Shown here one piece after another: positions 3,263 through 34,128 of a stretch of DNA of 37,027 bases (its first letter is position 1; every line of letters begins with the position of its first letter). Position numbers and translations under genes: made by a program. Location: assembly GCA_019115425.1 (NCBI GenBank), contig DXDO01000099.1, forward strand, positions 1 to 37,027, given 5' to 3'. The notes under the pieces are model-generated. The model made no database searches and was not told the origin of the DNA. It saw nothing but the letters and a program-made list of their open reading frames with translations. This DNA comes from Candidatus Agathobaculum merdigallinarum (GTDB taxonomy: Bacteria; Bacillota; Clostridia; Oscillospirales; Butyricicoccaceae).

Positions 3263-5833
3263 TTAATCGCTTTGCAGGCTGCGGATCACATCCTCAATAT
3301 GTTGATTGGCCTGTTCAACCTCCCATTTCAGTTCTGTTGCGGACAGGCGCTCGGCGCCGTGTCCTAAAATAATCATCTGCTCCATGCCGTCCGACGTCGC
3401 CACGCGCACACGATGCTTGCGGGACAGATCATAGGATGCCTGCTCGATATACATATCCGCGGTTTCGGCTTCCCTGGTGTATACGATATGCAGCCCGTGC
3501 CGCTTTTCGATCGAGCCGACGCCGCCTTTGACCTTATACGCGTCAAACACGACGATCAAATGGCATTTCCGCACACTCTGGTAGTTGCTCAAAACGTTAA
3601 TCAGCGCTTCACGCGCCGCATTGATATCCTCGCCCGCGATATCGTGCAGCTCGTCCCATGCGAAAATGATGTTATATCCGTCCACAAGCAGATAATCATC
3701 CGCACGAATGCGGGTAACATATAACTGTTCCAGCGTTGCGGCCTTTTTGCGGCTTTGCTGAAAGGCCTCAAAGCTGCGGTTCTTGATCGGCCCGTAGGTG
3801 CGCTCAAACAGGGCGCGCAGCTCCTTGTCATCGTCCATCTCCGTGGAGGCCGCAGCGGACGAACGGCGTACTGATACCGGCTCGGACTCTTCCTCGGGCG
3901 TCAGCCGTATACCGGAATCCACATGCGCATGCGCGGCAACTTCATCCCATTTGACGACGTGGCCCGCACCATGCGAGCAGAAAACCGAATCCGCAAGATT
4001 GTCGGTGTCACGCTCGGCCTCATACCCAATCGCCTGAATCACCTGCGCCGCATTGTGGCAGGGTGCGTAGCCGTTTGCTGTACAGGACAGGCGGCCGCGT
4101 CCCCTGGTGTACGCCGCAACCTCAGTCCAGTAGTTGCGCATCGCAGCAACCGGCGCAGTGCCGGTCAGCACCGTGCTGTCTTTCTGCTGCTGGGGCGGGT
4201 CAAAGGTGCCGTCCATGCGTTGGATATCATTCATCGCGCGCCCGACATATTCATCCGGCAGTTCCAGCCGGAAAGCATAGTATGGTTCAAGCAAAATGCT
4301 TTCCGCCTGCATCAAGCCGTTGCGCACCGCACGGTAGGTCGCTTCACGGAAGTCGCCGCCTTCGGTATGCTTGACATGCGCACGCCCCGCCAACAGGGTG
4401 ATCTTCATATCCGTAACCGGAGCACCCGTCAGCACGCCGAGATGCGCTTTTTCCGCCAGATGGGTCAGCACCAGACGCTGCCAATTCAAATCCAGCGCAT
4501 CTGTCGGGCAGGACGAAGCGAACTGCATGCCGCTGCCCCGCTCTGCCGGCTCCAGCAGAAGATGCACCTCCGCATAGTGCCGCAGCGGCTCAAAATGCCC
4601 GATACCGATCACCGGCGCGGCAATCGTCTCCTTGTATACGATGCTGCCTTCGTCGAAAGTAACACTTACGCCAAAGCGCTCTGCAATCAGCCGGGTAAGC
4701 ACCTCAAGCTGCACCTCGCCCATGAGCCGCAGGTGGATTTCACCCAGCCGTTCGTTCCATACAACGCGAAGCTGCGGGTCCTCCTCTTCCAGCTGGCGCA
4801 GGTTTTGCAGCATGGCATGCACATCGCAGCCCTCCGGCAGATTCACCCGATAATTCAGCACCGGTTCGAGTATGGGCGGTATAACACCCGCTTCACTCCC
4901 CAATCCCGTGCCCGGACGGGTATGCGTCAGGCCGGTAACGGCGCACACCATACCCTGCTCGGCTTTTTCCACCGTCTGATACTTTTCGCCTGAATAGATA
5001 CGAATTTGATTAACTTTTTCCTGCCAGCCGCCGTCCTCCCCGCCGGTTAATTGCGTGCGCACTTCCAGCGTCCCTGCGGTGATCTTCAGATAAGACAGAC
5101 GGCTGCCCTGCGCATCCCGCGCAATCTTAAACACCCGCGCGCCGAAAGTATCCCCGCGCTGCGGCGGCCTGCCATATCGGTCGATCCCGTCAAGCAGCTC
5201 CCCCACACCATCCAATTTGAGCGCGGAGCCAAAATAACAGGGGAATATTTTTCGTGCGGCCGCCAGAGCCGCTATCTCGTTTTCTGCAACGGCTCCGGAT
5301 GCCAGATAGCGCTCCAGCAGCTCTTCATCGCACATGGCAACCTCTTCCGCCATACTGTCCGGCGCGCTGAAATCCACACAGTTCCCGCTCAGCCTGGATC
5401 TCAATTCTGCAAGAAGCGCGGCGCGATCCGTGCTCTGGATATCCATTTTATTGATGAAAATGAAAACAGGGATCCGATGCCGCTCCAACAGGCGCCACAG
5501 GGTTTCGGTATGGGCCTGCACGCCGTCTGTACCGCTGACTACTAAGACCGCATAGTCCAGCACCTGGAGCGTCCGCTCCATTTCCGCGGAAAAATCCACA
5601 TGTCCGGGGGTGTCCAGCAGTGTAACGGCTGTACCGGAAAGCGTCAGCTGCGCCTGCTTGGAGAAAATGGTGATGCCGCGTTCACGCTCCAGTGCAAACG
5701 TATCCAAAAAAGCATCCCGATGATCCACGCGCCCGAGTTTTTTCAAAGCGCCGGACTGAAACAGCATCGCTTCGGATAAAGTGGTTTTGCCGGCGTCTAC
5801 ATGGGCAAGAATACCGATTACTAGTCGTTTCAT
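3263..5833 (-). CDS. Tet(M)/EF-G-like ribosomal GTPase fused to a Rae1/YacP-type NYN nuclease
   Basis: This 856-residue protein has two parts. Residues 1 to about 638 match the length and order of Tet(M)-type ribosomal protection GTPases: P-loop GILAHVDAGKTT (7-18), switch I RGIT (52-55), DTPGH with the catalytic His (74-78), NKMD (128-131), then EF-G domains II-V. The domain IV tip, YSPVSTPADF in Tet(M)/Tet(O), reads KHTEGGDFREATYRAVR (about 488 on), so drug displacement cannot be assumed. After a polar linker of about 70 residues (639-711), residues 712-856 form an NYN domain like B. subtilis Rae1 (YacP), an endonuclease that cuts mRNA in the ribosomal A site: LLVDGYNII, VVFDAYKVKG, YTREAETADMYIE, VATSDGMEQ. 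The predicted acidic residues are kept. The likely role is a GTP-driven ribosome factor that cleaves mRNA, which is inference. SD GGGAAGG lies five bases before ATG 5833, and a clear promoter lies upstream. Confidence 0.9.
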   Translation of the reverse strand: MKRLVIGILAHVDAGKTTLSEAMLFQSGALKKLGRVDHRDAFLDTFALERERGITIFSKQAQLTLSGTAVTLLDTPGHVDFSAEMERTLQVLDYAVLVVSGTDGVQAHTETLWRLLERHRIPVFIFINKMDIQSTDRAALLAELRSRLSGNCVDFSAPDSMAEEVAMCDEELLERYLASGAVAENEIAALAAARKIFPCYFGSALKLDGVGELLDGIDRYGRPPQRGDTFGARVFKIARDAQGSRLSYLKITAGTLEVRTQLTGGEDGGWQEKVNQIRIYSGEKYQTVEKAEQGMVCAVTGLTHTRPGTGLGSEAGVIPPILEPVLNYRVNLPEGCDVHAMLQNLRQLEEEDPQLRVVWNERLGEIHLRLMGEVQLEVLTRLIAERFGVSVTFDEGSIVYKETIAAPVIGIGHFEPLRHYAEVHLLLEPAERGSGMQFASSCPTDALDLNWQRLVLTHLAEKAHLGVLTGAPVTDMKITLLAGRAHVKHTEGGDFREATYRAVRNGLMQAESILLEPYYAFRLELPDEYVGRAMNDIQRMDGTFDPPQQQKDSTVLTGTAPVAAMRNYWTEVAAYTRGRGRLSCTANGYAPCHNAAQVIQAIGYEAERDTDNLADSVFCSHGAGHVVKWDEVAAHAHVDSGIRLTPEEESEPVSVRRSSAAASTEMDDDKELRALFERTYGPIKNRSFEAFQQSRKKAATLEQLYVTRIRADDYLLVDGYNIIFAWDELHDIAGEDINAAREALINVLSNYQSVRKCHLIVVFDAYKVKGGVGSIEKRHGLHIVYTREAETADMYIEQASYDLSRKHRVRVATSDGMEQMIILGHGAERLSATELKWEVEQANQHIEDVIRSLQSD

Positions 5834-22342: not shown

Positions 22343-22597
22343 GGCACCCCGAAGGGTGCCTCAGCTTGTCGAAAAAGTCCTTCGCGCCGCAGCGCGCATA
22401 AAATAGAAAATTGCAACACGTTGCAATTTTCATAAAAACCCGCGACATGTGCGTGGGTTTTTATACAAACCGCTGGTAAGTGGGCCTGAAAGGCGCGCGC
22501 AGCCAGCGGAATTTTCGATCGGAAGCGTGGTTCCGATCGAGAGGCTGTTCGAAAAACTATGTTTTTCGACAGCCTCAGTCACCCCGAAGGGTGCCTC
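22343..22597. repeat. Tandem hairpin array 1 bounded by 18-bp direct repeats
   Basis: The gap between the lipoprotein gene and the murB promoter (about 410 bases with no gene) holds a chain of inverted repeats: 22343-22360 (GGCACCC-CGAA-GGGTGCC), 22406-22431 (12-bp arms), 22432-22464, 22470-22509, 22516-22539 (CGATCGGAA arms), 22541-22576 (about 15 bp) and 22580-22593. The outer hairpins share an 18-bp perfect direct repeat (22345-22362 and 22580-22597). The third hairpin recurs at 27683-27715. The ORF 22449-22637 in this region is not credible. Confidence 0.8.
22432..22464. repeat. Shared hairpin element, copy 1
   Basis: ATAAAAACCC...GGGTTTTTAT hairpin with inner GCG/CGT pairs and loop ACATGTG. 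It matches copy 2 at 27683-27715 at 30 of 33 positions. Two of the three differences form one compensatory base-pair change. Confidence 0.85.
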
Positions 22598-22611: not shown

Positions 22612-23100
22612 TTACTCGCTTGCGCTTTCCAGCATAGCCGCGCCTTCCGCCATATCGGCAAGCGCCGTGCTCATTTGCTCCTGCATCTGCGTGGACAGCT
22701 CCGCCAGCTTCGTCTGGTCGGTTTCACCGGACATTGCAACAGCCGTGTCAATGAAATCAATCAAAGCCTGGCAGCCGGACTGCAGCTTCTCATGCGCATC
22801 CGCATAGGCTTCCGGCGGCGTAATCGCGATAAAGTCGTTCATCGAACTCTTCATTGCGTCCAGCACTTCCTGTCCCGCTTCCGGGTCCGACATCGCAGTG
22901 CTGGCGTTGGTCTGGATCTCGGTCATCTCCGTGCTGAGGTTCTGCACCGCCTCGAGATATTCTTCCTCAGTCAGCGCCGGGGCGCTTTCTTCGCCCTGAT
23001 CCGCCGGCTGATTTCCGCCCGATCCGCAGGCTGCGAGCGACAAAACCATTACTACCCCCAGCAGAAGCGCGAATAAACGTTTCTTCATGTTCTCTTTCAT
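22612..23100 (-). CDS. Small lipoprotein of unknown function
   Basis: The 162-residue product starts MKENMKKRLFALLLG and has a hydrophobic core and lipobox LAAC (Cys25), followed by a Gly/Asp/Glu-rich tether. It is therefore an exported, membrane-anchored lipoprotein. The mature part is helical and acidic, with PPEAYADAHEKLQSGCQALIDFID in the middle, a pattern seen in other clostridial lipoproteins of unknown role. The start ATG 23100 has AAGGAG eight bases upstream. An inner start at residue 5 is also possible. It has its own promoter, and hairpin array 1 follows its stop. Confidence 0.85.
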   Translation of the reverse strand: MKENMKKRLFALLLGVVMVLSLAACGSGGNQPADQGEESAPALTEEEYLEAVQNLSTEMTEIQTNASTAMSDPEAGQEVLDAMKSSMNDFIAITPPEAYADAHEKLQSGCQALIDFIDTAVAMSGETDQTKLAELSTQMQEQMSTALADMAEGAAMLESASE

Positions 23101-27645: not shown

Positions 27646-27818
27646 GCAAAACCGGCCGGCGCAAAGCGAAGGCCGGTTTTGCATAAAAATCCGCGACATG
27701 CGCGTGGATTTTTATACCAGTCCGCAGAAAAGTTTCTCCGGAACTTTTCTGCGCTCCAGATGCGTCCGCGCCCCTGCGCGGCGCATCCTCTTCGTTTGGG
27801 CCGCTCGCGGTCCAAACG
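27646..27818. repeat. Tandem hairpin array 2
   Basis: Chain of inverted repeats between DUF512 and the rpmF terminator: 27646-27682 (GCAAAACCGGCC arms, 12 bp), 27683-27715 (shared hairpin), 27723-27753 (12-bp perfect arms, loop TCTCCGG), 27759-27787 (GATGCG plus CCGCG arms) and 27793-27818 (CGTTTGG arms). It has the same general layout as array 1, with a hairpin ending in TTTT directly before the shared hairpin, but only the shared hairpin and its right edge are similar in sequence. Confidence 0.8.
27683..27715. repeat. Shared hairpin element, copy 2
   Basis: ATAAAAATCC...GGATTTTTAT with inner GCG/CGT pairs and loop ACATGCG. It differs from copy 1 by a C-G to T-A pair exchange in the stem and one loop base. 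The right flank (TATACCAGTCCGC versus TATACAAACCGC) is also alike. Confidence 0.85.
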
Positions 27819-27827
27819 AGGCGAAGC

Positions 27828-27868
27828 CAAAAAAAATGGAGAAGCCGATGCCGCCTTCTCCATTTTTT
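27828..27868 (-). terminator. rpmF terminator
   Basis: A 14-bp inverted repeat (27831-27844 and 27855-27868) with a 10-base loop. The minus strand continues the run of T (CCATTTTTTTTGG) directly after the stem. It lies 15 bases beyond the rpmF stop. Confidence 0.88.
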
Positions 27869-32994: not shown

Positions 32995-34128
32995 TCAGGT
33001 TGGGATATCTCCGTTTCGGAAAAGACTTACCTGAATGTTGCTGTATAGAAAAGCGGCACCTGTGCTGACAATGCGCAGGGTCGCGGGAACGGTTGGAACC
33101 GCAATCGGAACGCTGAAGGACTGATTGTCGATATCACTCGATGTGTGGAAACTCTGCTGTGCCGCCGCACCCGGTATCGAAACCCCGTCGAGCTGTGCAA
33201 CAGTCAGTACATTGAGCGGGAACTTCACTTTGCTGCCCGGTGCAAAGCCACCGTGAAACGACAGCGTGTACACGCCAGCCCGATTAATTGTAATATTCGA
33301 GCTGTTGTTGGCATGGCTGACCGCATTGCCATACACCAACGCATTGCGGTCAAAGATCAGCGCAGTCTGTCCGGAGCCGCTTTGGGGCGGGTTGGAATAT
33401 GCCGACAGCAGCTGGATCGGAGCGTTGCATCCGGTCGCGCCGCGCGGAATGATGAAATTAAATACCGCATCCTTCTCCGTACCGCTGTTCGTTACTGCAG
33501 CTTCTGTGTTCGGCTCCCCTGTTGTCACTGTGCCGACACGGACTGTCGCAGTATCTCCCTCCGGTCCGGTTGGGCCGGTCGGGCCAGTTGGACCGGTCGG
33601 GCCGCTTGGGCCTGTCGAGCCACTCGGACCGCTCGGGCCAGTCGGACCTGTCGGACCAGTCGGACCAGTCGGACCACTCGGACCAGTCGGGCCTGTCGGA
33701 CCAGTCGGACCAGTCGGACCAGTCGGGCCAGTCGGACCGCTCGGACCTGTTGGACCCGTTGGGCCGCTTGGGCCGGTCGGGCCTGTCGGACCACTCGGGC
33801 CGGTTGGGCCACTCGGACCAGTCGGGCCAGTCGGACCGGTTGGACCAGTTGGGCCAGTTGGACCGCTCGGACCCATTGGACCGCTCGGACCCGTTGGTCC
33901 AATTGGGCCAGTCGGACCAGTCGGGCCGGTTGGACCAGTCACGCCGCGCGGTCCCATCGGGCCCCGCTCGCCACGCAAGCCGCGCGGCCCTGCCGGACCG
34001 GTCGCGCCTCTGGGGCCGGTCGGACCGCGCATACAGCAGCCGCCCGACTCCCCGCAGATTCTATCCATCCAATCGCCGGACGAACAATCCCTTCCGTCGC
34101 GTCCACCGAATTGAGAGCGATTGTACAT
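32995..34128 (-). CDS. Collagen-like (BclA-type) spore or surface protein
   Basis: The 377-residue protein has three parts: an N-terminal leader with four cysteines ([18 protein letters not shown]), about 53 collagen triplets (residues 35-193, mostly GPT with some GPS and one GST), and a C-terminal domain of about 180 residues. That C-terminal domain resembles the trimeric TNF-like BclA head ([23 protein letters not shown]). Such proteins form hair-like filaments on the exosporium of Bacillus and Clostridioides. There is no signal peptide, as expected for mother-cell spore-coat assembly. The Thr-rich triplets are candidate O-glycosylation sites, and a glycosyltransferase gene lies 53 bases upstream on the same strand. 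The start ATG has AAAGGAAG upstream. Confidence 0.92.
33550..34026. repeat. 9-bp tandem repeat encoding Gly-Pro-Thr triplets
   Basis: About 53 units of 9 bases (GGNCCNACN read on the minus strand) with varied third positions, so the array is old or under selection rather than freshly expanded. The opposite strand reads GTNGGNCCN and so also stays open, producing spurious Val-Gly-Pro ORFs. Confidence 0.95.

Follow-up and report, generated by a model that had tools for sequence, protein, structure and literature searches.

A covarying hairpin in Agathobaculum belongs to a family of structured elements found at intrinsic terminators

We describe here a family of multi-hairpin elements whose best-conserved helix, P2, occurs twice in the window, by which we mean the whole 37,027-nucleotide stretch of Candidatus Agathobaculum merdigallinarum DNA that was analysed. 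On balance we favour the reading that this is a structured mobile family settling at terminators, that its type B form is a MITE moved by a likely IS1182 transposase, that its fold is under selection and that P2 most likely acts as transcriptional punctuation. The members would accordingly be small, non-coding mobile elements that lodge at the 3' ends of genes. No Rfam match above the gathering score was obtained on the elements, so a known Rfam RNA was rejected as their identity, and no description of the family was found in the literature searched. They are best read as a new terminator-targeting, MITE-like structured element, MITEs as such being already known.

The P2 hairpin and its modular surroundings

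The first-pass annotation had reported that positions 22432-22464 and 27683-27715 are alike at 30 of 33 bases, with two stem differences that are partners of one base pair and a third in the loop. Re-alignment gave the same picture: offset 7 (C/T) pairs with offset 25 (G/A), and the remaining difference lies in the loop at offset 18 (T/C). A repeat search extended the similarity between the two loci to 40 nt at 90%. The stem, too, goes beyond what is apparent at first, with 13 pairs, one of them G.U, out to ATA|TAT. The 16-nt core CGCGACATGYGCGTGG has ten exact matches in the same Agathobaculum (Butyricicoccaceae) genome (G000; 2.0 Mb, 203 contigs), which carries about 45 copies of P2: a covariance model built from 47 distinct copies returned 45 matches there at E<1e-3, of which 32 exceed 40 bits, and the similarity of the two hairpins is thus not a matter of chance. 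The model also brought out a second P2 subfamily in this genome, with inner stem CAGG/CCTG replacing CGCG/CGTG. Among the recovered copies the loop is conserved as ACATGYG, partly as a result of how the search was constructed, and its ends are swapped from A..G to G..A at four loci. One copy from Ca. Agathobaculum stercoravium (L117) is identical to an own-genome copy (L014) across the compared stretch.

The element to which P2 contributes one helix is modular, about 150-240 bp long and built from hairpins set one after another, which in the Butyricicoccaceae follow a fixed order: P0 (GC), P1 (hypervariable), P2, P3, P4 (in type A only) and P5. At the first of the two window loci a type B mobile element of 217 bp (22363-22579, + strand) is delimited by terminal repeats, a target duplication and empty sites. 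End comparison places its left terminal repeat, AGCTTGTCGAAAAAG, at 22363-22377, and copy comparison the GC-rich P0 at 22383-22396; P1 (22406-22431) is supported by stem statistics, and P2 (22432-22464) by its alignment with the 27683 copy and by a covariance-model match. P3, CCGCTGG..CCAGCGG with an inner hairpin (22470-22509), and P5 (22515-22540) were defined with the rpmJ-rpsM orthologues, and the right-end hairpin P6 (22541-22576) by end comparison, its 3' arm GTTTTTCGACAGCCTC being the right terminal repeat. All lie on the + strand.

The other copy, also on the + strand, is of type A. Directly 5' of P2 lies its P1 (27646-27682; rpmF-locus comparison and fold), followed by P2 itself with a 13-bp stem and the loop ACATGCG (27683-27715; covariation and covariance-model match) and by P3, GAAAAGTTTC..GGAACTTTTC, with a U.G pair (27723-27753; copy comparison and fold). 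P4, the covarying hairpin with a bulged T that is particular to type A (27759-27787), and P5 at the gene-facing end (27792-27819) both come from the rpmF-locus comparison. The element adjoins the rpmF terminator (27830-27868), which was recognised from its sequence and is conserved in empty loci, and P5 faces the 3' end of rpmF (ribosomal protein L32; 27884-28066, - strand, from its ORF translation). The two window copies are therefore different subtypes of one family, with different P3 hairpins and with terminal repeats in one only; they do not form an ancestor-descendant pair separated by a single compensated change, and the evidence for compensation has to come from the family as a whole.

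P1, P2 and P5 are common to type A and to the other forms without terminal repeats, and P3 occurs in several unrelated types that are exchanged between copies. Across 133 copies P1 has 98 distinct 5' arms and P5 has 106, with mean stems of 8.4 bp and 10.2 bp, where shuffled sequences give 4.7 and 5.4. Three loci (L132, L005, L257) had suggested that P0 and P4 might be a target duplication flanking a smaller type A unit; this was rejected because their similarity within a copy was not above that across copies in 27 copies. Elsewhere in the window, a near-perfect 21-bp inverted repeat with a 5-nt loop (2675-2721) forms a strong hairpin unrelated to P2, and a collagen-like protein (PF01391; 32995-34128, - strand) contains an array of 9/18-bp repeats at about 33569-33940.

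Relatives of P2 are found in other Clostridia and in some Saccharibacteria. Among 295 genomes of the order, strong matches (at least 45 bits) are found in the genus itself and in G013, G031, G217 and G280, with clear variants carried by G202/G270 and G207/G172; covariance-model matches scoring under about 31 bits in the rest of the order are for the most part ordinary terminators. The P2 core in Saccharibacteria MAGs lies next to RNase P RNA, in a spacer between convergent genes, and within leuS, in frame, where the hairpin is read as protein (L047, 5431-5457). Another Saccharibacteria locus (L172, about 1502-1580) holds two tandem P2-like hairpins, the second with the apex GGACATGTGCC of the second Agathobaculum subfamily, and at L059 the end of an OLE RNA (4096-4752, +) lies about 100 bp from an opposite-strand P2 element. 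An Arenicella match (L079), with an unpaired AG/CC and inside an ORF, was taken as chance. No match was found in IMG/VR viral contigs, phages or plasmids, and carriage by phage or plasmid was rejected on this ground.

Covariation and selection on the fold

The paired stem difference had been proposed as a sign that the folded form, as RNA or extruded DNA, is under selection, with covariation in collected copies as the check and unpaired stem changes as frequent as paired ones as the refuting case. In the 47 distinct copies, 99.3% of 611 P2 pair cells are standard pairs. Double changes that keep pairing occupy 82 cells at 7 of the 13 pairs, as compared to 18.5 (sd 3.5) in shuffles, no shuffle reaching 82, and to at most 6 in slid controls; unpaired cells number about 4 of the 611. 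A search pattern in which two P2 pairs were left free, AAAANNCGCGACATGYGCGTGNNTTTT, returned at least 108 stretches, and among the matches listed the free pairs were CG/CG, TA/CG, GC/TA, GC/CG, CG/GC, AT/CG and others, nearly always paired. Since the P2 copies are related, these double changes are not independent events, and it is the tests at orthologous loci that address kinship.

In the spacer between rpmJ and rpsM, where at least seven species have the element, five type B orthologues from five species show seven double-changed pairs, in P1, P2, P3 and P5, with 99.6% of cells paired and at most one double-changed pair in slid controls. At the window's own rpmF locus, compared across 25 Agathobaculum genomes, there are 18 double-change cells in four species, against at most 4 in slid controls. 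The full element with changed yet paired helices is present there in three genomes (G357, G348, G353), drifted copies are present in two (G041, G054), and the others have P4-P5 remnants only or a compact spacer; the fold is maintained after insertion, yet it can be lost. The proposed compensation is real because double changes are also seen at these single orthologous loci, and selection on the fold is well supported: the covariation sought by the first-pass annotation stands above shuffled and slid controls in the collected copies and above slid controls at both orthologous loci, and unpaired changes are far from being as frequent as paired ones.

As regards the molecule that folds, the helices downstream of P2, read on the P2 strand, have G.U and A.C in a ratio of 172:73, compared with 55:74 in shuffles, while P1 has no G.U bias (40:56). 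This excess identifies the P2 strand as the better-folded one and points to a folded single strand, either RNA or single-stranded DNA, and not to a symmetric cruciform. The type A window element folds at -107.8 kcal/mol on this strand (shuffles -62.6; z -12.05) and at -94.6 kcal/mol on the complement.

The wobbles also bear on a mutational explanation. Template switching in quasi-palindromes is known in bacteria, and by copying one arm onto the other it would yield paired changes for free, in stems that are indeed long and near perfect. Simple correction of this kind would be expected to remove wobble pairs, yet in all five rpmJ orthologues they are left unrepaired (columns 59-71, 99-115 and 101-113), the G.U pair of P2 is kept in 46 of 47 copies (partly by search construction), the G.U excess is strand-specific, and elements that are no longer kept decay to unpaired remnants. 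We consider mutation alone a most improbable source of the complementarity.

Insertion into terminators and the mobilising enzyme

Direct repeats with a score of at least 18 flank the same copy in 30 of 152 cases, where mispaired flanks lead one to expect 0.6; 24 of the 30 remain when the tandem array L242 (four rows) and the tandem neighbours L116 and L130 are left out. In Agathobaculum and Butyricicoccus the duplications measure 18-41 bp and are nearly always a terminator hairpin, and the duplicated terminators enclose elements mostly of 210-237 bp (147-191 bp in some forms). Longer duplications occur in rumen Clostridia, of 46 bp at L107 and of 56 bp at L146, the latter of which appears from its sequence to include a gene's stop codon. 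Type B elements are short, non-coding and multi-copy, with no conserved ORF noticed, and they have the terminal inverted repeats CAGYYTGTCGAAAAAG / GTTTTTCGACAGYCTC, target duplications and an empty site, as expected of a MITE. For instance, the window element at 22363-22579 is inserted in an intrinsic terminator (hairpin 22343-22360) and flanked by two copies of it, each CACCCCGAAGGGTGCCTC, at 22345-22362 and 22580-22597, and seven relatives (L284, L285, L288, L294, L300, L302, L304) have one terminator and no element at this site. In two further genomes, G356 and G344, this terminator has received different insertions. In G356, a type B-like element upstream of the orthologue of window 22612-23100 (L293) has the P2 apex replaced by a longer unrelated insert inside the A/T stem.

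The elements are also oriented with respect to genes. For intergenic copies with both neighbours called, by a codon-biased ORF caller, the neighbour orientations are -- in 59, +- in 32, ++ in 21 and -+ in 2: the gene end that P5 faces is a 3' end (59:21, p 1.3e-5), and the elements avoid divergent spacers (the 2 copies). This location, together with the A-tract/GC/T-tract form of most P2 copies and the lack of target duplications in type A copies, might suggest plain terminators that evolved in place at the 3' ends of their own genes. Against it stand the target duplications, terminal repeats, empty sites and tandem arrays, and the recurrence of the same multi-hairpin architecture at unrelated genes; as a general account we find it very unlikely, and for type B it is already contradicted by the duplications, terminal repeats and empty sites.

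The type A window copy (27646-27819) has neither terminal inverted repeats nor a target duplication, and so falls outside the MITE definition; L012 is the sole type A copy with a target duplication. The forms without terminal repeats, type A among them, would be either older insertions or elements moved by another route. Tandem arrays include five head-to-tail copies that repeat every 160-180 bp (L242; G217:C1 22940-23654) and three copies with a 183-bp period and a duplicated queA 3' end per unit in G207/G172 (L243, L244). The same array sequence in these two genomes, which belong to two families, suggests that one of the two MAGs is contaminated.

Which enzyme moves type B is suggested by a contig end in G344 (L325; G344:C9, 1-380), where an open frame of 106 aa matches the IS1182 family (NF033551, E=4e-26; PF05598, E=9e-16). 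The frame is preceded by CAGTCTGTCGAAAAAG, which is identical to the left end of type B and directly adjoins a terminator-like hairpin; the right end lies beyond the contig. This truncated element is probably the autonomous relative. Two complete IS1182-type elements in the family, with ends GGGRCTGTCGCAC or GGGGCTGTTGCAAAAC, have the inverted flanks AAATAA|TTATTT and CAAAG|CTTTG, and thus sit in palindromes, as type B does in terminator hairpins. Type B is therefore likely, though not proven, to be mobilised by a palindrome-recognising IS1182-family transposase. PF13751 and PF05598 transposases are present in some members of the genus; A. desmolans (G041), a carrier of many fresh duplications, gave no match to either, and the only transposase match in G000 looks like a spurious frame. 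A complete insertion sequence with both ends matching was sought among the loci examined, which yielded only paired neighbouring small elements and the one truncated IS. Alternatively, high-copy imperfect palindromes at gene ends recall REP sequences that a REP-associated tyrosine transposase (RAYT) mobilises. Y1 transposase (PF01797) had no match in G000 and in 16 of the 19 genomes searched, most of them carriers, and neither the long target duplications nor the terminal inverted repeats suit such a mechanism; mobilisation of this kind was rejected, its probability being next to negligible.

What P2 may do, and relation to known systems

In the sequence of events that we propose, a type B MITE would insert into an intrinsic terminator and duplicate the whole terminator hairpin, and its own hairpins would afterwards be kept by selection on a folded single strand, that with P2 as written on +. 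P2 would most likely keep transcription punctuated both ways, with the consequence that insertion into a terminator is tolerated, and its loop may additionally be read by a protein. Most copies of P2 are A-tract/GC-stem/T-tract hairpins that could, judged from sequence, terminate transcription in both directions, and the T-tract follows the GC stem in 133 of 152 copies, the search patterns favouring it. Termination cannot be the whole role, since in G202/G270 the A and T tracts of P2 are reversed and there is no T-tract, and the location of the rpmJ-rpsM copy inside an operon also counts against punctuation as the whole answer.

These G202/G270 copies keep the apex, and this fits an alternative in which transcription is irrelevant and the mobilising enzyme, or some other DNA-binding protein, recognises P2 and the accompanying hairpins in the form of extruded or single-stranded DNA. 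Mobility and palindrome targeting, the loop conserved in most recovered copies, and the P2 strand at 27683, upstream of which no promoter was predicted, agree with such recognition, but the excess of G.U over A.C fits RNA at least as well, and structure is kept at the immobile-looking rpmJ-rpsM and rpmF copies, where a transposition signal could decay freely. We regard it as possible, if unlikely, as the main account. A trans-acting or guide-like structured RNA made from the P2 strand, mobility being a side issue, would suit the strong fold of that strand, its polar wobbles and an architecture that is modular yet conserved across several families. It is harder to reconcile with dozens of copies per genome, the lack of a predicted promoter at 27683, adjacent genes transcribed on the other strand in most copies, and a P3 swapped for unrelated hairpins among copies, and we think it quite unlikely. 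We further speculate, while holding it to be highly improbable, that the folded P2 strand is an RNA scaffold or guide in a terminator-homing DDE-transposase element that makes whole-palindrome duplications. As roles for P2, then, we give the largest share to punctuation, the next to DNA recognition and a small one to a trans-acting RNA.

The family is a clear example from nature of a mobile element that invades terminators, copying the terminator so that each side keeps one, and whose fold is then held by selection long enough for compensatory changes to appear at orthologous loci. Seemingly unrelated terminator-like hairpins in gut Clostridia can thus belong to one dispersed family. With its ends defined, and with a target rule, empty sites and a covariance model available, both the enzyme and what the fold does can be tested directly in cultured Agathobaculum.

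The BOX, ERIC and bcr1 repeats are likewise small, dispersed, intergenic and built in modular fashion of several hairpins; the present elements differ from them in sequence and hosts, and in inserting into terminators with duplication of the whole terminator. Most P2 copies resemble intrinsic terminators in being A-tract/GC-stem/T-tract hairpins at gene ends, but they are set apart by a conserved loop, strand-polar wobbles, the G202/G270 copies without T-tract, and further hairpins in a fixed order. REP sequences (GTAG and CGTC families) and rickettsial palindromic elements are short dispersed imperfect palindromes, mostly intergenic and sometimes in frame within genes, and the published REP list names no Clostridia (PMC3733652). 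The present family shares with them its dispersed imperfect palindromes, the leuS copy in L047 being comparable to the in-frame cases, whereas it has no GTAG/RAYT link and is larger and multi-hairpin, with terminal repeats and duplications.

No MITE of the present kind was found in the literature searched. Among the nearest known systems are the insertion sequences of the IS1182 family and their MITEs: IS1272, of this family, takes inverted repeats and stem-loops as targets (PMC5678879), palindromic stem-loops are the targets here as well, and the left end of type B is shared with a truncated IS1182-family element of the same genus. IS1272, however, replaces its target stem-loop and leaves no duplication (PMC5678879), whereas the present elements duplicate the whole terminator, and unlike IS1182-family insertion sequences they have no coding content and consist of hairpins under selection.
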